This document shows, one piece after another, positions 53,695 to 64,000 of a stretch of 64,000 nucleotides of DNA. Position 1 is the first letter of the stretch, and each line of letters opens with the position of its first letter. The notes beneath the pieces are model-generated. The model saw only the letters and a list, made by a program, of their open reading frames with translations. It was not told the DNA's origin and made no database searches. Both the position numbers and the translations under genes were made by a program. This DNA is from a bacterium. Its GTDB lineage: Bacteria > Planctomycetota > SZUA-567. Location of the stretch: positions 62,001-126,000 of the forward strand of contig QKCJ01000005.1 in assembly GCA_003245715.1 (NCBI GenBank), in the 5' to 3' direction.

Positions 53695-54030
53695 TTAGTG
53701 AGAACAGGCGTTTGTCCCGGTTTTTAAAGTATTATCAAGAAACTGACCGACGAGTTCTGCAGCTGTTCCCTCAATTGCGCCGACCACTACATTGATGCTG
53801 TTCTGCATAAACAGGCTCTGCGCCTTCTGGCCCATTCCGCCGGCAATAATATGGGTGACCCCCCTCTCGCCAAGCCATTTAGGCAGAAGCCCCGGTTCAT
53901 GCGGTGGAGGAACAATTTCTTCGGTTTTGGTAATCTGATTGTTTTCATCCACGTCAATAATCGCAAAGGTCTGACAGTGGCCAAAGTGCATACAGAGCTT
54001 TCCCTCCGCACATGGAACAGCAAAACGCAT
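53695..54030 (-). CDS. NifX/NifB-like dinitrogenase-cofactor-family protein (second copy)
   Basis: A 111-residue protein of the Dinitrogenase Fe-Mo cofactor biosynthesis family (RNase-H-like fold). Seen are the N-terminal FAVPCAEGKLCMHFGHCQTFAIIDVD, the loop PPHEPGLLPKWL and GVTHIIAGGMGQKAQSLF. The Cys and His residues in the first 20 positions could bind metal clusters. Such proteins also occur in organisms without nitrogenase, next to MinD-type ATPases, where the function is unknown. It is the last gene of the cluster. Confidence 0.88.
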   Translation of the reverse strand: MRFAVPCAEGKLCMHFGHCQTFAIIDVDENNQITKTEEIVPPPHEPGLLPKWLGERGVTHIIAGGMGQKAQSLFMQNSINVVVGAIEGTAAELVGQFLDNTLKTGTNACSH

Positions 54031-54082
54031 AATTATCTCCTCTAAAAAGTATTCTCAATAAGTTACCACTTAACAGTAAAAA

Positions 54083-54970
54083 TTAATTCATTGTTTTCAT
54101 TAAGACATTTTCGCAGACGAATATAATCTCGCCAAAAATCTCACAATCAGCAAGCTCAAGCACAGAACAACGATCGTTTTGCGCTCGGGTAAAATCTTCA
54201 GAGTATCTGATATTCCCGATAAGCTCGCCCCCATTATTCCGGCAGAAATCACTGATTCTGTCCTTGACATCAGGATTAATGTCGCATTTATTGATGCAGA
54301 CGAGGATTTTGACACCAAAATGCTTTGTCAGCCTGATTACCCGCTCAAGATCATGCAGCCCTGATAACGTCGGCTCGGTTACAACAAGGGCTACATCAGT
54401 GTCGGTAATTGATGCAATAACCGGGCAACCGATTCCGGGAGGGCCATCACTGATTATCAGTTCCGCCTGAGATTTAACGGCTATTTCCTGCGCCTGCTTT
54501 CTGACTGCACTGACAAGTTTGCCCGAGTTCTCCCCCCCTACCCCGAGTCTGGCGTGCGAGAGCATGCCTTTGTCCGTTTTTGTAAGAAAAATCTGACCGC
54601 AGAGAGCTTCGACAAGCTTTATACTTCCGGCCGGGCAGTGATCCTCGCAGATTCCGCAGCCCTCACAGCCGTTTTCAGATATTGCCGGTTTTCCCTCTAT
54701 TATTTTAATAGCATCAAAAGGACAGAGCTCCCCGCATTTTCCGCAACCGACACAATCATCACCAGTTATAGCAACAAATCCGCTGTAAAAGTCAGCCCGC
54801 TTATCAAGTCTTCCCGGTATTACCAAATTAAGGTCAGCCGCGTCAACATCGCAATCCGCAAGAACTGTCCTCAGATTATTCTTGGCGTACGCCGCAAGCG
54901 CTGCAGTGATGCTGGTCTTGCCGCTGCCACCTTTACCGCTAATTATCAGGAGTTCTTTATATGATTTCAT
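54083..54970 (-). CDS. MinD-superfamily P-loop ATPase with ferredoxin insert (second)
   Basis: The 295-residue ATPase has a deviant Walker A GKGGSGKTSITAAL at the start and DGPPGIGCPV as Walker B. Between them lie two [4Fe-4S] motifs, CVGCGKCGELCPFDAI and CEGCGICEDHCPAGS (about 73-115). Proteins of this type are related to MRP/NBP35 cluster carriers and to nitrogenase iron-protein-like ATPases. The likely role is ATP-driven handling of iron-sulfur or other metal clusters, with the adjacent NifX proteins as partners; this is inference. It overlaps the upstream ATPase gene by four bases. Confidence 0.88.
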   Translation of the reverse strand: MKSYKELLIISGKGGSGKTSITAALAAYAKNNLRTVLADCDVDAADLNLVIPGRLDKRADFYSGFVAITGDDCVGCGKCGELCPFDAIKIIEGKPAISENGCEGCGICEDHCPAGSIKLVEALCGQIFLTKTDKGMLSHARLGVGGENSGKLVSAVRKQAQEIAVKSQAELIISDGPPGIGCPVIASITDTDVALVVTEPTLSGLHDLERVIRLTKHFGVKILVCINKCDINPDVKDRISDFCRNNGGELIGNIRYSEDFTRAQNDRCSVLELADCEIFGEIIFVCENVLMKTMN

Positions 54971-55824
54971 CCAAACTCCTTCGTACTCAGCGCTGACCTG
55001 ATTCCATGAAAAACATCAACCAGTCTCTTGTTTAAATCCGGGCGTAACGCAGTAATAGGAACGCCCCTTGAATAGCCCTCGGCAATGTCACGTGAAGCAG
55101 CTACCTCAAGTAATAAGTCAATACCCTCAGAGAGACAGTAATTGCGGATTATGTCATTATCCGGGGTGCTGCGGTTGACGATAACACCAAACGCTTTATT
55201 ACTTGAACGCACTGCAGCAACCGCCATCTCAAGATCGTTAATCCCAAACGGGGTCGGCTCTGTTACAAGTATCACATAATCAGCAGCCTCAACTGCCGCA
55301 AGCATCGAGCAACTTGTTCCAGGTGGTGAGTCAATAATCAGGTCAAAATCATTATCCGCAGAAGCAATAACATGGCGTATCAGCGGAGCAGACATGCTCT
55401 CGCCAATATCAAGCAAACCCGATAAAAAACGTAAATTCGCCCTTGATACTTTATTGATAACACCAATCTCGCGCTTGCCGGTTATTACCGCCTCAGCCGG
55501 ACAGGCCAGTACGCAGCCCCCACAGCCATGGCAGATCTCGTTGAAAAATACCGGATAATCTCTAGCCATGCCAATGGCGTTAAAACGGCAGGACACGGCA
55601 CACTTTCCGCATGAGGTACACTTTTTCTTATCTACTGCGTATGAATTGACAAATGCCGGAACTGTAATACAGCTTCCCATATCAAGAAATAACCCGGCAT
55701 TAGGCTCCTCAACATCACAATCAAGAAGCTGCACCGCTCTTTCTTCGGCAACCGAAAGCGCCAGTCCGACAGAAATCGTCGTCTTTCCCGTTCCGCCCTT
55801 ACCGGAAGCAATAGCAATTTTCAT
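54967..55824 (-). CDS. MinD-superfamily P-loop ATPase with ferredoxin insert (first)
   Basis: The 285-residue paralogue of the next gene. It starts with GKGGTGKTTISVGL and has DSPPGTSCSMLAA as Walker B. The ferredoxin-type insert is CTSCGKCAVSCRFNAI with CHGCGGCVLACPAEAV (about 70-110). The pair of paralogues in tandem, overlapping by four bases, suggests a heterodimer, as with related ATPase pairs in anaerobes. No experimental function is known to me. Confidence 0.88.
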   Translation of the reverse strand: MKIAIASGKGGTGKTTISVGLALSVAEERAVQLLDCDVEEPNAGLFLDMGSCITVPAFVNSYAVDKKKCTSCGKCAVSCRFNAIGMARDYPVFFNEICHGCGGCVLACPAEAVITGKREIGVINKVSRANLRFLSGLLDIGESMSAPLIRHVIASADNDFDLIIDSPPGTSCSMLAAVEAADYVILVTEPTPFGINDLEMAVAAVRSSNKAFGVIVNRSTPDNDIIRNYCLSEGIDLLLEVAASRDIAEGYSRGVPITALRPDLNKRLVDVFHGIRSALSTKEFG

Positions 55825-55825
55825 A

Positions 55826-56191
55826 TCAGACCCAATGCCCCTCTACATCCGCATTTTTCGCAGCCTGAAGCTGCCCGTTCACGACTAGCGCCGCAACTTC
55901 CCTGATCTTTTTTCCCTGCATCTGGAGGTAAACATCAGTCTGTGACTCGTGTAAAACACGGAATGCCTTTGGACCGCAATGCCCAGTAACCAGACACTCC
56001 GCACCTTCTTTCAGTACAGTCTGCGCCGCCTGAATACCAGCACCTTGCGCCGCATTAAGATTCTGTACATTATCAACATACCTGATTGAATCATCTGCAG
56101 AGTCGTAAAGCATAAAACCCTGAGCGCGACCGAAACGGCCGTCAATAATTCCGTCAGGATCAGCACTGCTCACAGAAAATGCGATAATCAT
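55826..56191 (-). CDS. NifX/NifB-like dinitrogenase-cofactor-family protein (first copy)
   Basis: ATG 56191, preceded by GGAGAGG, gives 121 residues; the start overlaps the stop of the upstream Gly/Arg-rich gene by four bases. The family fold is seen as IIAFSVSSADPDGIIDGRFGRAQGF, QGAGIQAAQTV and CLVTGHCGPKAFRVL. It has Cys residues only in the second half, unlike the other copy in the cluster. The two copies are distinct, not a recent duplication. Confidence 0.87.
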   Translation of the reverse strand: MIIAFSVSSADPDGIIDGRFGRAQGFMLYDSADDSIRYVDNVQNLNAAQGAGIQAAQTVLKEGAECLVTGHCGPKAFRVLHESQTDVYLQMQGKKIREVAALVVNGQLQAAKNADVEGHWV

Positions 56192-56433
56192 ACACCTCTC
56201 CTGCAACCAAACGCACCAGCCATCCGGCCACGGCCACTACACCCCATACCGCGCCCTGCAGCCAAACCGAACCCGCGCCCCCGTCTGCGACCAAAACCCA
56301 TTGTCACGCCAAAGTCATCAAAATCCGTAGCACTGTTATCCTGCAGATACTTTCCCCGGCAACGACCACGCCCGCTGCCACAGATCAATTCCGGAAGATC
56401 AGATGTGTTATTTTCTGAATTTTGCCCAGACAT
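56188..56433 (-). CDS. Small Gly/Arg-rich protein (DUF5320-like)
   Basis: The 81-residue protein starts at ATG 56433 after AAGGAG. Its C-terminal half is Gly-, Arg- and Cys-rich: GFGRRRGRGFGLAAGRGMGCSGRGR. This composition is typical of short proteins found beside MinD/NifX clusters in anaerobes, often called DUF5320. It is the first gene of the cluster and overlaps the NifX-like gene by four bases. Function unknown. Confidence 0.7.
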   Translation of the reverse strand: MSGQNSENNTSDLPELICGSGRGRCRGKYLQDNSATDFDDFGVTMGFGRRRGRGFGLAAGRGMGCSGRGRMAGAFGCRRGV

Positions 56434-56539
56434 CACTTTCTCCTTATTTGTAGAAAATTATCCAAAGTCAGCAAAAAAATACTGCAAAGCAGAATAAAAT
56501 CACTATAATGAGTGCCAATATATTTTGCTTAAGCAGGAT

Positions 56540-56570
56540 CTTATTATAAACCATAGTTTATAATAAGCAA
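56540..56570 (-). promoter_or_regulatory. Promoter of the NifX/MinD cluster overlain by a 28-base palindrome (operator)
   Basis: Forward arms CTTATTATAAAC (56540-56551) and GTTTATAATAAG (56556-56567) are a perfect 12 bp inverted repeat around CATA. On the minus strand TTGCTT and TATAAT are separated by 16 bases (56543-56570), so the palindrome spans the spacer and -10 box. This is a likely repressor or regulator site. The divergent DUF134 regulator is the natural candidate to bind it; that link is inference. Confidence 0.72.
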
Positions 56571-56609
56571 GATTAATTTTGAACTATTGATTATAATTAT
56601 GAGGTATGT

Positions 56610-57002
56610 ATGCCCAGACCACAGGGAAAAAGAAAACTTTGCTGTAAACCAGGACACACGCTCTATAAGCCTAACAGCATACCAATGCGAAACTTAGAAA
56701 GAATCGAGCTTCATCTTGATGAGATGGAGGCATTACGTCTTGCTGACAAGGAAGGATTGCTTCAGGAAGACGCCGCAACAAGCATGGGTGTATCCAGGCC
56801 GACCTTTACGCGGATAATCGGTAATGCCAGAAAGAAGGTTGCGACGGCTCTTTGGGAGGGCAAGGCCTTGGAAATTACTGGCGGAAATATTGAATTTTCA
56901 CAACAGAGCAGCACCTGTTCGCGCTGTAACGCCGAGTATGAAGGTAATCACGATAAGCCGGATATCTGCCCTAATTGCAATAAAGAGAGTGAGACAAAGT
57001 AG
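56610..57002 (+). CDS. DUF134-family helix-turn-helix regulator with C-terminal zinc-ribbon cysteines
   Basis: The 130-residue protein begins with the family block MPRPQGKRKLCCKPG and contains a helix-turn-helix, DEMEALRLADKEGLLQEDAATSMGVSRPTFTRII (about 34-70). The C-terminus (about 100-125) adds two C-x2-C pairs, CSRC and CPNC, rubredoxin-like or zinc-ribbon-like. It is divergent from the NifX/MinD cluster, a pairing seen often in anaerobes, and probably controls it. The cysteines might sense metals or redox state. Confidence 0.87.
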   Translation: MPRPQGKRKLCCKPGHTLYKPNSIPMRNLERIELHLDEMEALRLADKEGLLQEDAATSMGVSRPTFTRIIGNARKKVATALWEGKALEITGGNIEFSQQSSTCSRCNAEYEGNHDKPDICPNCNKESETK

Positions 57003-57130: not shown

Positions 57131-57637
57131 ATGGATTCCAAATATATTGAAGTTGCAACCTCAAACAGTGATGCACTGATAAAAATTATCGGGCTGGGTG
57201 ATATGAATCTGGCTCCGACACTTGACGACCTTACCATGGTTCTATGTCAGGAAGGGTGTCGTCATCTTGCCATTGACCTCTCAGAATGCGCGGGTATGGA
57301 CAGCACATTTATGGGTACGCTAATCAGCATTAACATCAGGTTTTCAGAAGACAACGGCTGGATGTGCCTGATTAATGTAAATCCGGAGCATAAATCCCTG
57401 CTTAAAATGCTTGGCGTCTGGGGAATGCTCAAGGTGCGTGAAAACTTCCCGATGGTGCCTGTAAAGACCGCCAAGATCAAACCTCCGAGTGAATACATTG
57501 CAGAGAAACGGATGCAGGTTATTCAGGTGGCACATGAACGGCTGGCGGAGATCAGCGAAAACAATAAAGAGCGCTTCGGGCCATTTCTTGAAAGTCTGCG
57601 CAACGAAATAAACAAGGAAGTTGAATCTGAAGATTAG
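57131..57637 (+). CDS. STAS-domain protein (anti-anti-sigma factor-like)
   Basis: The 168-residue protein has a STAS domain (about 8-110) with the signature HLAIDLSECAGMDSTFMGTL. Ser58, after Asp57, is at the position phosphorylated in SpoIIAA and RsbV; the neighbour SpoIIE-type phosphatase could remove the phosphate. A C-terminal helical tail (about 118-168) is acidic. It is convergent with the phosphatase gene, overlapping by four bases. No anti-sigma kinase is visible nearby. Confidence 0.88.
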   Translation: MDSKYIEVATSNSDALIKIIGLGDMNLAPTLDDLTMVLCQEGCRHLAIDLSECAGMDSTFMGTLISINIRFSEDNGWMCLINVNPEHKSLLKMLGVWGMLKVRENFPMVPVKTAKIKPPSEYIAEKRMQVIQVAHERLAEISENNKERFGPFLESLRNEINKEVESED

Positions 57638-58809
57638 CAGTAACTGATTGAGACTTTTTTGCGGTACTTTTCTTCAAGAACTCGGGCAATGCGGCTGATG
57701 ATGTTTCTGCGGGGAAGCAGGTCCGGTGGACACTCGCCTGAGATATAAGCGCCGTTAATACCCATACCAACGACAAAATAAATTCTGTCATTATGCAGAA
57801 GCAGTCGGACAAGCCTGCCGGCGGCATTCATTACATGACTGGCATCTTCTTCATTTTCGAGCATTGCTGCAACCCGCGACAAGGTAACCAGACCCTCCGT
57901 AACCAGATCAACCCCCGGCATATATGCACAGGGAGGCAGATCACTGTCGCCGCGTCCGCGTTCAGTCTCGGCTTTTACCCCCATGATCCGCTGGATAATA
58001 TTACAGGTCGTTCCGCCACAGATTATTTTTTTACCGTCAAAACAGTAGAAGTCCTTACTGAATTTCTCATCATCATCCTTACTCGCCGGCGGGCCACTGA
58101 CAAGCATCAGCTTCCGCGGTTCATGAAAATGCATCACAGCGCAGGTAATATCATCATAAGCTCTCTTGCCGCGCTCGCGGCTGATAGCGGCACTGACAAT
58201 ACCGTTCGCAAGAGCCAATGCGTTAATGGAGGGGTGACGCTCAAGAGCTTCATAAACATACGCCCGGAACCCATGCTCGCCCCATCCCATCGGATACTGG
58301 TCAGTACCGACACCAGCCTGAACAACTCCGTCACTGACAAAGATCAGCCTGTCATCAGCCTGAATATCAAACTCGCTGAGATAAATTGCACGGTTTTTCC
58401 AATTGGGCGAAGTAAGTTTGCGGCGCTTTATCGGCATCAGTTCATGGTTTCGGAAAAACAAGAGCTGCGGGTTGTCCATTTCAATAACCCGTATCCCCTC
58501 CCCCTCACGATAGTCAATAACCGTGAAGGTTGCGTAGCTGATATTTCTGACTTTGCAGATCGGCAGAGCGTCGAGCATGGTCTGCATTGAGCGGATAATA
58601 TCGTTATCACTGCCGATAAACTTGATGGCCATATGTGCGGTCATTGTAGACAGGACACTGGCTTTTATGCCACTGCCCATCCCGTCAGACAGAACAGCAA
58701 GCGTCCGGTCGTCCTCAGAGATGCGGCGGCTTAGAAAGTAGTCACCATACGCATTCTCAGAGTATTTTTTTTCCTGAACACATTCTATTTCAAGGAACAA
58801 TTCACTCAT
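57634..58809 (-). CDS. SpoIIE-type PPM phosphatase
   Basis: A 391-residue serine phosphatase of the SpoIIE/RsbU family. Manganese-binding motifs are SDGMGSGIKA near residues 37-46, and RLIFVSDGVVQ near 155 and YDDITCAV near 218. The C-terminal 160 residues (GKKIICGGTTCNIIQRI onward) are not part of the common catalytic domain and I cannot assign them. The gene follows the sensory hydrogenase gene by 15 bases in the same direction, so the two form an operon. Its likely substrate is a phosphorylated STAS protein. Confidence 0.88.
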   Translation of the reverse strand: MSELFLEIECVQEKKYSENAYGDYFLSRRISEDDRTLAVLSDGMGSGIKASVLSTMTAHMAIKFIGSDNDIIRSMQTMLDALPICKVRNISYATFTVIDYREGEGIRVIEMDNPQLLFFRNHELMPIKRRKLTSPNWKNRAIYLSEFDIQADDRLIFVSDGVVQAGVGTDQYPMGWGEHGFRAYVYEALERHPSINALALANGIVSAAISRERGKRAYDDITCAVMHFHEPRKLMLVSGPPASKDDDEKFSKDFYCFDGKKIICGGTTCNIIQRIMGVKAETERGRGDSDLPPCAYMPGVDLVTEGLVTLSRVAAMLENEEDASHVMNAAGRLVRLLLHNDRIYFVVGMGINGAYISGECPPDLLPRRNIISRIARVLEEKYRKKVSISYC

Positions 58810-58824
58810 GACATTCCGCCTGTA

Positions 58825-60558
58825 TTATTCTTCTGTAACTTCAACACTGTCATCACCGCTTGAGGCATAGTCCTCAGCAAGCGAGCGCAGCAGTATCTCG
58901 GTCTCTGCCATATTCTCGCCAAGTTCTGCCGCGATACTCTGGACGGTTTCAAGATTCTTCTTGATAACCTGTTGCGCTTTTCTGGCGATCTGCTCACGCT
59001 TCATTCCGGGATTGGTGATATCAAGCAAAATTACCCCGGCCGCCTGATTAGGCTCAATGGTAAAGACATGAAGATCAAGAATCTTGCCAAATACCTTGAC
59101 TGATTCCTTGCGGATATCACGTCCGGTCTTTAGTGTCTGCTCGACAAGGTCACAGAAAGGCAAAAGCTTGGCCGCATTAGCCCCCTCAAGGCCGGGATTT
59201 GCCTCCCATAACAATAAGGCGTCACCCCCGACAATATCGGCAAAATACTGATTACTCTCAATTATGCGAAGATCTGAGTCAATAATAACTACACCATTAG
59301 GCATACAGCGCAAGAGAGCATTGGCCTTGCGCTGGCTCATTTTGCGCAAATAGTTCAGGCACATCTGCGGTTCTGCCCTGCCCTCAAGTAACGCCGCGGC
59401 AAAACTCCTGCATGAGTTATAGCCGCAGGCGCCACAGTTAAGCTCATCATCAAGAGAGTGCTTGCCGACCCTGGCCAGCGCAGAGCGGATCTCCTCGTCG
59501 GTGTGATCCAACTCATGAATATTGGTTACCGGCACAGAGCCTTTTACTGATACACCTTCACCGGTAATAGGAAGACGCTCTTTTAATTTGCTGACATCTT
59601 CTGCCGCCAGAATGTTAAGAAGCCCCGGCCTCCCCTCACTCATACATGGCCCATTGATACAACCGCCGTCGCAGGCAAGAATCTCAACAAAGACCTTTTC
59701 CTTGAGGCCCTCTTCTTTTAATCCCGACAACGCACGCTCGATCTCGTTAAGGCCGGAGACAGTCACATATCTGATACCCTTTCCGCCGCGGGCTTTTAAA
59801 GTATCAAGCATCCCCCCCTCTACCGGGTAAAGTGCGCCGTCAGCGGCTTTTTCGGGAACAAAGGCATCATCTTCAGTTACTGCAACGCGCTTGGGAGCAA
59901 TTTCCTTTATCGAGAACCAGTTGGAAAGATCCTTGAAAGTCAGGGCCAGATTCATTGATTCTTCAAACTCATCCGCCTCGGTTTTTTTCGCAATACACGG
60001 ACTGAAGAAAACAATCGCAATATCATCGCCAAAAGATTCGCGCAATAATTTACAGTGTGCCAGCGCCGGTGAGAGGACATCAGTAATCTTCCCGGCAAGG
60101 TCAGGCAGGTATTTTCTTATGTATGCACTCGCCGCAGGACATGCTGAGGAAATCGCCAGCTTGCTCGCAGAAGCCGGAAAAGATTCTGCAAGAGCCTGTG
60201 AAACCATCTGAGCCCCAAGCGCTGTTTCACTCACAGCCTTGAAGCCAAGTTTCTTTAAGGATGCAATCATATGCGCGTCATCAATCCCCTGAAACTCACT
60301 AGCCCAGGATGGTGCAAGAGATGCATAAACATCTTTGCCGCTGTTAATAAGTTCTACCGCCCTTGGCAAATCATCGCGTACATGCTTGGCCTTGCTCGGA
60401 CAGACCAGAACACAGGTCCCGCAGGCGACACAACGCTCCGGCATAACCGCAGCCCGGCCATTTTCAATCCTGATTGCCTTTGCCGGACAGTGGCGAAGAC
60501 ATTTGTAACAGTCTTGACACTCTGTTTTTTCAGTATATACTGGATATTTATCAGTCAT
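58825..60558 (-). CDS. Sensory-type [FeFe]-hydrogenase homologue with ferredoxin, Fe-S and PAS domains
   Basis: The 577-residue protein has, in order: an N-terminal two-cluster ferredoxin (Cys14, 17, 20, 24 and Cys43, 46, 49, 53), the H-cluster domain (about 75-350), an extra Fe-S domain (Cys375, 378, 383 and 400) and a PAS domain (about 412-515), then a helical tail. H-cluster ligands are kept: Cys140 in SSACP, Cys187 in SPCIAKK, Cys296 and Cys300 in LACDGGC. The proton-transfer Cys of the canonical TSCCP motif is Ala139. This matches group C/D putative sensory hydrogenases. It is co-transcribed with the SpoIIE phosphatase. Confidence 0.9.
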   Translation of the reverse strand: MTDKYPVYTEKTECQDCYKCLRHCPAKAIRIENGRAAVMPERCVACGTCVLVCPSKAKHVRDDLPRAVELINSGKDVYASLAPSWASEFQGIDDAHMIASLKKLGFKAVSETALGAQMVSQALAESFPASASKLAISSACPAASAYIRKYLPDLAGKITDVLSPALAHCKLLRESFGDDIAIVFFSPCIAKKTEADEFEESMNLALTFKDLSNWFSIKEIAPKRVAVTEDDAFVPEKAADGALYPVEGGMLDTLKARGGKGIRYVTVSGLNEIERALSGLKEEGLKEKVFVEILACDGGCINGPCMSEGRPGLLNILAAEDVSKLKERLPITGEGVSVKGSVPVTNIHELDHTDEEIRSALARVGKHSLDDELNCGACGYNSCRSFAAALLEGRAEPQMCLNYLRKMSQRKANALLRCMPNGVVIIDSDLRIIESNQYFADIVGGDALLLWEANPGLEGANAAKLLPFCDLVEQTLKTGRDIRKESVKVFGKILDLHVFTIEPNQAAGVILLDITNPGMKREQIARKAQQVIKKNLETVQSIAAELGENMAETEILLRSLAEDYASSGDDSVEVTEE

Positions 60559-60877
60559 AATAATACCTGTTTTAACTATGGCGAAATGTGAAACTAATAT
60601 GTATTTATTTATTTTCAGCTAATAATAATATATTGCAATTTGATGTTTTTGTCAAATTTAATACTCATTTTTTAATAATCCAGCCTTCATGTAAGGCATT
60701 GCAATTTAGCTGGTTATATTTATTGTAATCATTTTTTGGATTATTCGCGAAATTTTTATCTAAAACTCCTTGACAAAGATGTAGGTTCATTGTATATAGA
60801 TATTAAATTACTGAATAATTCTGGCGCGGGCAGAGCCTGTTTCGGCAGGTGCGCAGGAAGGGAGATGAGAGAGTAAG
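60559..60877. other. 319-base divergent control region between the sensory hydrogenase and rex
   Basis: No gene is seen. The palindrome ATTGCAAT occurs twice (60632-60639 and 60698-60705), each followed by TT, 66 bases apart. CCAGC and GCTGG flank the second copy as an inverted pair. The rex promoter lies further right, and the rex leader (60822-60851) can fold as a GC-rich hairpin around CCTG...CAGG. No classical Rex operator half-sites were recognised. Confidence 0.5.
60770..60798 (+). promoter_or_regulatory. Strong sigma-70-type promoter of rex
   Basis: A perfect TTGACA and TATATA are separated by 17 bases. The predicted leader is about 75 bases and ends in a purine-rich ribosome binding site (GGAAGGGAG, 60853-60861). 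Confidence 0.75.
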
Positions 60878-61582
60878 ATGGTTAACGGTGACAATAAAAC
60901 TTCAGACAGGTCCAATATCGCCCCGGTGCCGACACTGCGGCGTCTTCCACGTTACCTTGAATATTTAAAGGGGTTGCGTGTTCATGGTGATGCGCATGTC
61001 TCCTGTACGCAGATTGCCGGAGCGCTTGATCTTGTCCCGACGCAGGTCCGTAAAGATCTTGCTTGTACGGGAATTGTCGGGAAGCCCAAGAAGGGTTATC
61101 CCGTTTTTGCATTAATGTCATCAATCGAGAATTTTCTTGGCTGGAATGACCCGCGTGATGCTTTTCTTATTGGTGCGGGTGCACTGGGTACGGCAATTCT
61201 CGGTTATGAAAGTTTCCGCAGCAATGGTCTTAACATTGTTGCCGCCTTTGACACCGATACCTCGAAAATTGGCACGAAAGTCCGTGGGGTCGAGGTGCTG
61301 GCTCTGGATAAACTTGAAGATCTCTGCCGACGCATGAAGATACTTATCGGTGTACTCACCATGCCTGCTCATTACGCTCAGGCCGTGACCGATATGCTTG
61401 TGCGCGGTGGAATTAAAGCTATATGGAATTTTACAACAGCTCGTCTGGTTGTGCCAGATGAGGTAGTTCTTGAGAACGCACAGCTTGCATCAAGCTTTGC
61501 GGTATTAAGCAGTAAGTTACGCTCAACCATGCATGATCCTCTTGAGGAGGAATCATCCGAGGAGGTTTTCGTCTCCAACTAA
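60878..61582 (+). CDS. rex: Redox-sensing transcriptional repressor Rex
   Basis: A 234-residue repressor that leaves DNA when the NADH/NAD+ ratio rises. The N-terminal winged helix (about 18-90) has LRRLPRYLEYLKGL and LVPTQVRKDLACTGIVGKPKKGYP. The Rossmann domain shows LIGAGALGTAILGYE and AFDTDTSKIGTKV, and GIKAIWNF with TTARL. A short acidic tail (EEESSEEVF) is added at the C-terminus. Its neighbours are a sensory hydrogenase and an NADH-linked hydrogenase operon, an expected Rex target. Confidence 0.95.
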   Translation: MVNGDNKTSDRSNIAPVPTLRRLPRYLEYLKGLRVHGDAHVSCTQIAGALDLVPTQVRKDLACTGIVGKPKKGYPVFALMSSIENFLGWNDPRDAFLIGAGALGTAILGYESFRSNGLNIVAAFDTDTSKIGTKVRGVEVLALDKLEDLCRRMKILIGVLTMPAHYAQAVTDMLVRGGIKAIWNFTTARLVVPDEVVLENAQLASSFAVLSSKLRSTMHDPLEEESSEEVFVSN

Positions 61583-61844
61583 AGCTCTGAAAATTTAAGA
61601 CTTACAATTTTAAAATTTTCTATCCTGTTGATACAGGTATGGGTTTTTCATGGCTTCATGCAGAATTATGAGCATAAATCGATAATTATGTCAGTAAGAA
61701 AATAATATTTACTGATTTAATTACCTAATAATTTCTTGCCGTTAAAGAGTAGGCGTTCTGGCAATACGCTTTAAATAGAAATCTTAAAATTTAATGTTTA
61801 GAATTGAGTAATTCTTTTTTTTATATTCAGAGGAGTAATTCATT

Positions 61845-62333
61845 ATGGCAGCAGTAACAGATGAAGAGATGGCAGTAGTTGACACCATTCTCGAAAAGTA
61901 CGGCTTGAGCGAATCGAAACTGATTCCAATTCTGGCTGAGATTCAGGAGCATTTCCGTTATGTTCCGACCAAGGCTATGGCACACGTTGCCCAGAAGCTT
62001 GGTGTTCCGGCAGCCAAGATTTACGGTGTTGCAACATTCTATGCACACTTTGCTCTTGAGCCAAAGGGTAAGTTTGTTATCAAGGTTTGTGATGGTACAG
62101 CCTGCCACGTTAAAGGCTCTACAAAAATCATTGATGCTCTTTATGAGAAGCTTGGAGTTAACGCTGAGTCAAAGACTACCAAGGATCAACTATTCACTGT
62201 TGAGACTGTTTCATGTCTTGGAGCTTGTGGTCTGGCTCCTGTGATGCTTGTAAATGAAGATGTATATGGTCAGGTTAAGGCTGATAAAGCCGCTGAGATT
62301 GTTGACTCAATCATTGAGGCCGAAAAAGCCTGA
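61845..62333 (+). CDS. hydC: NADH-dependent [FeFe]-hydrogenase gamma subunit (NuoE-like)
   Basis: The 162-residue thioredoxin-fold subunit carries one [2Fe-2S] cluster with Cys82, Cys87, Cys124 and Cys128 (VCDGTACHVKG and SCLGACG), typical of NuoE and HydC. It moves electrons between the flavin subunit and the ferredoxin-type centres of the hydrogenase or an NADH complex. The gene stands 262 bases after rex and 65 bases before hydB. NuoE of complex I would be followed by nuoF in the same order, so the hydrogenase label rests on the N-terminal 2Fe-2S domain of the next gene. Confidence 0.88.
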   Translation: MAAVTDEEMAVVDTILEKYGLSESKLIPILAEIQEHFRYVPTKAMAHVAQKLGVPAAKIYGVATFYAHFALEPKGKFVIKVCDGTACHVKGSTKIIDALYEKLGVNAESKTTKDQLFTVETVSCLGACGLAPVMLVNEDVYGQVKADKAAEIVDSIIEAEKA

Positions 62334-62398
62334 TTTAGCTTTTTATGTTTTTGATATTCAACTTAATAAAAAATTATTAACTGAAAGGTAACCTGATA

Positions 62399-64000
62399 AT
62401 GAGTGCTGATCTAAAGAAAATTGCTGATGACTACGCAGCAGCAGATAAAAAAATAACAAGACGAATTGTTATTTGTGCCGGTACCGGATGTGTTGCTAAC
62501 GGCTCACTTAAGGTTCGTGATGCGTTGGTTGCTGAACTGAAGAAAAAGAATATCAACGTTAGCGTTGAGCTTGATGTTCATAACTGCGGTGATGAGACTA
62601 CTTATGTTTCAAAGAGTGGCTGTCAGGGCTTCTGCCAGCAGGGTCCACTTCTTCACATTGCCCCGGATGACATCCTTTATGTTATGGTCAAGCCGGAAGA
62701 TGTTGAAGAGTTGGTGGCAAAGACAATCGTCGGCGGCGAAGTTGTTGAACGCCTGCTCTACACTGAGCCATCATCCGGCAAGAAGTGCAAGGGTGATGCT
62801 GAGATTCCGTTCTACAACCGTCAGACTCGTACAGTTCTCAAGAACTGCCGCATTGAGCCAGGCAGCATTGAGGAATATATTGCGACAGGCGGTTATGCTG
62901 GTGCAATGAAAGCACTTTGCGACATGAGTGCTGAAGGCGTTTGCCAGGAAGTGCTTGCCAGTGGCCTGCGTGGTCGAGGTGGTGGCGGCTTCCCGACTGG
63001 TCTTAAGTGGAAATTTACACTCCCTAACAAGAGTGACAAAAAGTATGTTATCTGTAATGGTGACGAAGGTGACCCGGGCGCGTTTATGGACCGTTCAGTT
63101 CTTGAAGGTAACCCGCACAGTGTTATCGAAGGTATGTTGATTGCTGCTAAAGCAATCGAAGCTAACGAAGGTTATATCTACGTCCGTGCTGAATATCCTC
63201 TTGCTGTTGAGCGCATGAACCGCGCGGTTGAAGACGCCATGAAGGTGGGTGTACTTGGCAAGAACATCTTCGGTTCAGGTCAGGATTTCATTCTTCACGT
63301 TATGGAAGGTGCCGGCGCGTTTGTCTGTGGTGAAGAAACAGCCCTTATCGCTTCTATCGAAGGTCAACGCGGTATGCCACGTCCAAAGCCACCGTTCCCT
63401 GCTGTCAGCGGTCTCTGGGGCAAGCCAACTGTTATCAACAACGTTGAAACCCTTTCATCAATCGGCCGAATTATCAAGGACGGTGCTGATGAATACAAGA
63501 AGATCGGTACAGAAAAGTCACCGGGTACAAAGACCTTTGCACTTACCGGTCACGTTGCCAACACCGGTCTTATCGAAGTTCCGTTTGGCACAACACTCCG
63601 CGAAATCGTTATGGAGATTGGTGGCGGTGTTACAGATGACGAAGGTAACCTTACCGGCGAATGCTTCAAGTCTGTCCAGATTGGTGGTCCTTCAGGTGGT
63701 TGTCTGACTGAAGAGATGCTTGATCTGCCGCTTGACTTTGACTCACTCAAGTCTGTTGGCGCGATGGTTGGTTCGGGTGGTCTTGTTGTTATGAACAAAC
63801 AGACCTGTATGGTAAGTGTTGCGAAGTTCTTCATGCAGTTCACCCAGAATGAATCATGCGGCAAGTGTGTTCCATGCCGTGAAGGTACAAAGCAGATGCT
63901 CTCAATGCTTGAAGACATTACAAGCGGCGAAGCGACTGTTGAGACACTTGACCTGCTTGAGCAGCTGGCAAGATCAGTTCAGAAAGCATCACTCTGCGGA
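62399..64000 (+). CDS. hydB: NADH-dependent [FeFe]-hydrogenase beta subunit (HydB/NuoF-like), partial
   Basis: The open frame from ATG 62399 runs off the window at codon 534. An N-terminal thioredoxin-like [2Fe-2S] domain (Cys26, 31, 75, 79) is followed by the NuoF-type flavoprotein: FMN-binding GRGGGGFPTGLKW (about 192-204), NAD-binding NGDEGDPGAFMDRS, CGEETALIASIEG, and the [4Fe-4S] motif SCGKCVPCREGT (Cys487, 490, 493) with the fourth Cys533 at the very end. The extra N-terminal domain is usual for bifurcating HydB or NADP-reducing HndC/HymB proteins. The expected HydA catalytic subunit would lie beyond the window. Confidence 0.93.
   Translation, partial: MSADLKKIADDYAAADKKITRRIVICAGTGCVANGSLKVRDALVAELKKKNINVSVELDVHNCGDETTYVSKSGCQGFCQQGPLLHIAPDDILYVMVKPEDVEELVAKTIVGGEVVERLLYTEPSSGKKCKGDAEIPFYNRQTRTVLKNCRIEPGSIEEYIATGGYAGAMKALCDMSAEGVCQEVLASGLRGRGGGGFPTGLKWKFTLPNKSDKKYVICNGDEGDPGAFMDRSVLEGNPHSVIEGMLIAAKAIEANEGYIYVRAEYPLAVERMNRAVEDAMKVGVLGKNIFGSGQDFILHVMEGAGAFVCGEETALIASIEGQRGMPRPKPPFPAVSGLWGKPTVINNVETLSSIGRIIKDGADEYKKIGTEKSPGTKTFALTGHVANTGLIEVPFGTTLREIVMEIGGGVTDDEGNLTGECFKSVQIGGPSGGCLTEEMLDLPLDFDSLKSVGAMVGSGGLVVMNKQTCMVSVAKFFMQFTQNESCGKCVPCREGTKQMLSMLEDITSGEATVETLDLLEQLARSVQKASLCG

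Follow-up and report, generated by a model that had tools for sequence, protein, structure and literature searches.

A phosphatase-linked sensory [FeFe]-hydrogenase, probably of group C3, beside a bifurcating hydrogenase operon

The partial pressure of H2 controls fermentation. A sensory [FeFe]-hydrogenase (HydS) encoded next to a phosphatase is not a new arrangement: the pair is known from many bacteria, and a coupling of its two members has been proposed in print before. HydDB defined group C3 as the phosphatase-linked hydrogenases and proposed that H2 is sensed via Ser/Thr phosphatases (PMC5037454). The HydS operon of Ruminococcus albus holds the same kind of pair, and the cluster is 111-fold repressed in co-culture, a difference that the authors of that study ascribe to the H2 level. 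In Thermoanaerobacterium, HfsB is described as carrying a PAS domain and HfsC as a serine phosphatase homologue. Deletion of hfsA or hfsB raises the adhE transcript two- to threefold; the enzyme activities of T. saccharolyticum are not explained by the adhE transcript changes, and hfsD expressed alone in an hfsABCD-less strain of T. thermosaccharolyticum gives a high-ethanol phenotype. In Hydrogenedentota, C3 genes lie next to A3 hydrogenases (PMC11406978), and a study of T. maritima HydS names C299, M353 and M497 as the positions altered in sensory hydrogenases (PMC10055695). The HydS proteins of T. maritima and T. mathranii retain low H2 turnover.

Here we describe a pair of this kind in “the window”, by which we mean the whole 64,000-nucleotide stretch of DNA analysed. 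In our view the two genes probably encode a phosphatase-linked (group C3) sensory [FeFe]-hydrogenase and the PP2C/SpoIIE phosphatase that belongs to it, the equivalent of HfsB–HfsC, and the pair would control hydrogenase and fermentation via a target protein. The original prediction had read the locus as an H2 sensor driving a partner switch; the sensory hydrogenase and its coupling to the phosphatase are supported, and the proposed output through the neighbouring STAS protein is not, its gene being convergent and unlinked in relatives.

Architecture of the hydrogenase and the phosphatase

Table 1. Features of the locus, in window positions
Feature	Position	Strand	Evidence or remark
STAS-domain protein, 168 aa	57131..57637	+	PF01740, 3.2e-8; judged outside the HydS system
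SpoIIE/PP2C phosphatase (HfsC-like), 391 aa	57634..58809	-	PF07228 SpoIIE, 1.5e-13; AF2 pLDDT 90
Phosphatase C-terminal domain, aa 232-391, motifs GPP, GGTT, PP, TEG, GxxxN	57637..58116	-	Conservation in alignment A4
HydS, probable C3-type group C sensory [FeFe]-hydrogenase, 577 aa	58825..60558	-	Pfam/NCBIfam, alignment A5, tree, AF2 pLDDT 86
PAS-like domain of HydS, about aa 401-515	59014..59358	-	AF2 secondary structure
Cx2Cx4Cx16C [4Fe-4S] site, C-terminal part of HydS, aa 375-400	59359..59436	-	FeS PF04060 at aa 373-400
H-cluster domain of HydS, aa 75-304	59647..60336	-	PF02906 Fe_hyd_lg_C, 1.1e-44
SSACP motif of HydS, aa 137-141	60136..60150	-	Ala139 instead of the proton-transfer Cys (CpI C299)
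2x[4Fe-4S] ferredoxin domain, N-terminus of HydS, aa 8-57	60388..60537	-	Fer4 families
Sigma-70-like promoter TTGACA-17-TATATT, upstream of hydS	60627..60655	-	Consensus scan only
rex, hymA, hymB (start)	60878..64000	+	Operon of the bifurcating group A hydrogenase, running away from hydS

The eight cysteines of the N-terminal ferredoxin domain of HydS are fully or nearly invariant in the alignment, and the four H-cluster cysteines, C140, C188, C296 and C300, are all present and invariant in 49 of 49 sequences (alignment A5). The original description, a complete set of H-cluster ligands with SSACP in place of TSCCP, thus holds: alanine occupies the CpI C299 position in the window copy and in 46/49 aligned sequences overall, and alignment to the motif gives Ser186 and Leu294 as the equivalents of CpI M353 and M497. 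Each of the four cysteines of the C-terminal Cx2Cx4Cx16C site is likewise found in 49/49. The PAS domain that had been claimed is also borne out. The AlphaFold2 model has the strand and helix order of a PAS-like fold at ~401–515, followed by a long helix (520–546), and the HydS paralogue has a clear Pfam PAS match (3.5e-6, PAS_8/PAS_9); in the window copy the Pfam signal is weak (PAS_8, E 0.0034, below cut-off).

In an IQ-TREE phylogeny, a check named with the original prediction, the HydS proteins form one clade (99/97), separate from catalytic group A (100/100) and from group B (100/97), in a tree whose A and B sequences came from this genome and its relatives; a long MCP-type row has an uncertain position in it. 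Both HydS proteins of this genome fall far below all NCBIfam group A and B cut-offs; HymC and the protein of contig C51 lie above the group A6 cut-off and the 481-aa protein of contig C24 above that of group B1. Judged on its sequence, HydS is of the predicted sensory type, outside catalytic group A and group B, and a putative slow, H2-sensing form of the hydrogenase. Complete H-cluster ligands, change at all three of C299, M353 and M497, a cluster followed by PAS, and a position outside A and B are the marks of group C; group D (TamHydS type) is marked by the lack of a PAS domain, and the modelled window HydS has a PAS-like fold. The label C3 is given for architecture and gene context, i.e. 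the Ser/Thr phosphatase gene adjoining hydS, and not for clustering with HydDB C3 references.

The phosphatase gene starts 15 bp past the HydS stop on the same strand, in keeping with the coupling originally proposed. Its residues G22-D23, D42-G43, S159-D160-G161 and D219-D220 are invariant (alignment A4), so that the metal-binding aspartates D23, D42, D160, D219 and D220 are kept across 49 sequences. The sequence relatives in the PDB are SpoIIE (3t91, 5mqh) and RsbX (3w40), and the best Foldseek matches of the AlphaFold2 model are PP2C; the active site appears intact. The ~160 residues that follow, absent from the original description, form a domain conserved in all members and across phyla (G239, D247, G265, T267, P292, T304-E305-G306, D341, G348 and N352), with an alpha/beta fold in a confident AlphaFold2 model. 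This C-terminal domain has no consistent Pfam match across the 49 members, and neither Pfam and PDB sequence searches nor Foldseek with the full phosphatase returned anything for it. It offers the most promising way to the output of the HydS system, and a concrete handle for finding it.

Taken together, these parts suggest a route for the signal. H2 or redox state would be read at the H-cluster of HydS and could pass through the C-terminal cluster to the PAS domain, along the signalling helix and on to the bound phosphatase, which would dephosphorylate a target protein and so tune the neighbouring hydrogenase and fermentation genes.

Distribution and gene neighbourhood of the pair

When 84,980 species genomes were scanned with the phosphatase as query, at least 564 relatives came back, and the best 80 loci were read. 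HydS lies immediately upstream of the phosphatase in all 80 of these, with a gap below 30 bp in 77 (starts were chosen mechanically, so overlaps are approximate). By record titles and tree labels, the pair occurs in Alphaproteobacteria, Gastranaerophilales/Melainabacteria, Lentisphaerota, Spirochaetota, Acidobacteriota, Bacteroidota, Planctomycetota, Nitrospirota, Synergistota, Thermodesulfobacteriota and Hydrogenedentota. In 71/80 loci there is a [2Fe-2S] thioredoxin-like gene of the type that precedes HydS. Downstream or nearby are a second [2Fe-2S] gene and a group B hydrogenase in 47 loci, and hymABC in 10–12.

The window genome has both settings. In the window, the pair adjoins rex-hymABC, with hymC extending past the window end, as it likewise does in family- and phylum-level relatives. 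A second copy of the pair, on contig C24 (L041:7934-12862), sits in an hfs-like operon of the order [2Fe-2S]–HydS–phosphatase–[2Fe-2S]–group B hydrogenase (B1), both [2Fe-2S] proteins being thioredoxin-like. Elsewhere in the genome, on contig C59 (L043:5120-7003), an [FeFe]-hydrogenase domain and an FeS domain are fused to an MCP signalling domain of the C2 chemotactic type, so C2- and C3-type sensors are both found here. Near the hydrogenase region of the window (53695-57002) are two MinD/Mrp-type ATPases with ferredoxin motifs, two NifX/MrpORP-like small proteins, an 82-aa Gly/Arg-rich protein and a DUF134 regulator.

The low turnover kept by the T. maritima and T. mathranii proteins would suit a HydS that is simply a slow catalytic enzyme with a minor redox role, its link to the phosphatase being mere co-expression. 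We consider this very improbable, given the PAS-like domain, the pairing with the phosphatase in every one of the 80 loci, and the rise of adhE expression upon hfsB deletion, which suggests regulation.

That hydrogenase genes are the constant neighbours of the pair fits another proposal, namely that the phosphatase acts post-translationally and directly dephosphorylates a hydrogenase or metabolic enzyme such as HymABC, the group B hydrogenase or AdhE. The mismatch between adhE transcripts and enzyme activities in T. saccharolyticum and the effect of hfsD alone in T. thermosaccharolyticum point the same way; against it, no phosphosite or kinase is known, and the adhE transcript does change, so transcriptional control must be at least part of the response. 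Direct action on an enzyme is possible, if on the unlikely side, and it overlaps with the reading preferred here, control via a target protein, as one possible identity of the substrate.

The STAS neighbour and the partner-switch question

In the original prediction, the adjacent STAS protein is dephosphorylated by the phosphatase, and an RsbW-like anti-sigma kinase is released or bound as a result. The STAS protein does carry the serine ascribed to it: in its motif GMDSTFMG the serine is at the position of SpoIIAA Ser58, and DSTFMG is kept in orthologues. The gene is convergent with the phosphatase gene, and the two share 4 bp at their ends; being on the opposite strand, it is not co-transcribed with it. 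Among 98 related genomes, a full-length STAS orthologue is found in 37, the phosphatase in 15 and both in 12. This co-occurrence (12/15 versus 25/83, p 0.0004, with no correction for kinship) speaks for a partner switch, but it weakens outside the family (p 0.03) and is gone within it (p 0.56), and 25 of the 37 STAS genomes have no phosphatase. Neither HydS nor the phosphatase lies near the orthologous STAS gene in any of 20 related loci read, some on short contigs.

In six genomes of the same family, the STAS gene instead stands beside a second STAS gene and genes for HPF, a PtsN-like EIIA and a YvcK/CofD-type protein (e.g. L105:4638-8017, L108:6030-9815 and L112:4244-7716), a cluster that suggests a connection with ribosome hibernation and with control of the PTS. 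Since the window genome has its HPF and YvcK homologue on contig C50 without STAS, the adjacency of STAS to HydS looks like a rearrangement. It is most likely an incidental neighbour, adjacent in this one genome only, and is probably not the substrate of the phosphatase.

The wider survey agrees. In the 80 loci, HMMs found neither a STAS nor an RsbW-type ATPase gene within ~6 kb of the pair, the same HMMs having recovered known members; an unrelated STAS protein ~3.6 kb from the phosphatase of one relative (G003, L132:5170-5490) is an isolated case. Among 50 genomes that carry the pair, 20 lack a HATPase_c_2 match over cut-off. Thirty of the 50 were also surveyed for STAS, and in 16 of these both a kinase of this type and a STAS match in a frame below 200 aa are missing. 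Most STAS matches in those 16 genomes sit in frames of 530–610 aa, a size that points to SulP transporters. The genomes are drafts, and absence in any single one is no proof, but the pattern recurs in two lineages. A PADLOC search gave no match.

RsbW-like kinases do exist in the window genome, as the original prediction had suggested looking for, in two complete partner-switch modules: contig C29 (phosphatase, kinase, STAS, STAS) and contig C31 (response-regulator phosphatase, STAS, kinase). Each module has its own phosphatase. Contig C51 carries a fusion of a response regulator with an RsbW-like ATPase (HATPase_c_2; L042:6285-7190), whose gene converges on that of a group A6 hydrogenase. A survey of Ser/Thr kinases (PF00069) singled out no partner kinase: this genome and Lentisphaeria have them in abundance, whereas in many pair-bearing Gastranaerophilales the matches are weak or missing.

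A partner switch would have an anti-sigma kinase and a STAS antagonist linked to its phosphatase, and in the loci read here the pair has neither link. The STAS protein was rejected as the substrate for this lack of linkage, and we regard the partner switch as very improbable. Conservation of the pair across many phyla, also in genomes without recognisable STAS or RsbW, argues for a substrate search beyond partner switching. Under the preferred reading, the pair may then act on a target outside STAS/RsbW logic, with the C-terminal domain of the phosphatase as a docking or ligand module; we offer this part tentatively. If true, it would be a new H2-driven output route for a phosphatase of the SpoIIE family.

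Comparison with described systems

With the RsbU/SpoIIE–RsbW/SpoIIAB–RsbV/SpoIIAA partner switch, the likeness lies in the SpoIIE-family phosphatase domain; it differs in that the pair stands without a linked kinase, and without a linked STAS gene outside this genome, and in that the phosphatase has the extra C-terminal domain. The group C HydS of T. maritima shares with the window protein an alanine at C299 (A131 in T. maritima), altered M353 and M497, the C-terminal [4Fe-4S] site and PAS; it has Ser for M497 and Gly for M353, where the window HydS has Leu and Ser, respectively.

HydDB group C3 has the same arrangement of an H-domain sensor and an adjacent Ser/Thr phosphatase gene (PMC5037454), and we see no essential difference from it, the comparison being one of architecture without alignment of C3 references. 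BfuT of Hydrogenedentota, also of group C3, is encoded beside BfuABC, so that there too a C3 sensor gene adjoins an A3 bifurcating hydrogenase. Its published description gives it PAS or histidine-kinase domains, and a phosphatase is not named in the text (PMC11406978); the Hydrogenedentota loci read here (L148 and L153) do have the phosphatase.

The closest counterpart in gene order is hfsABCD of Thermoanaerobacterium, in which HfsD is a hydrogenase. The window pair is equivalent to HfsB–HfsC; unlike hfsABCD, it has neither an hfsD-like gene nor the [2Fe-2S] thioredoxin-like gene upstream of HydS and adjoins rex-hymABC instead, and it is the C24 copy that keeps the hfs-like order.
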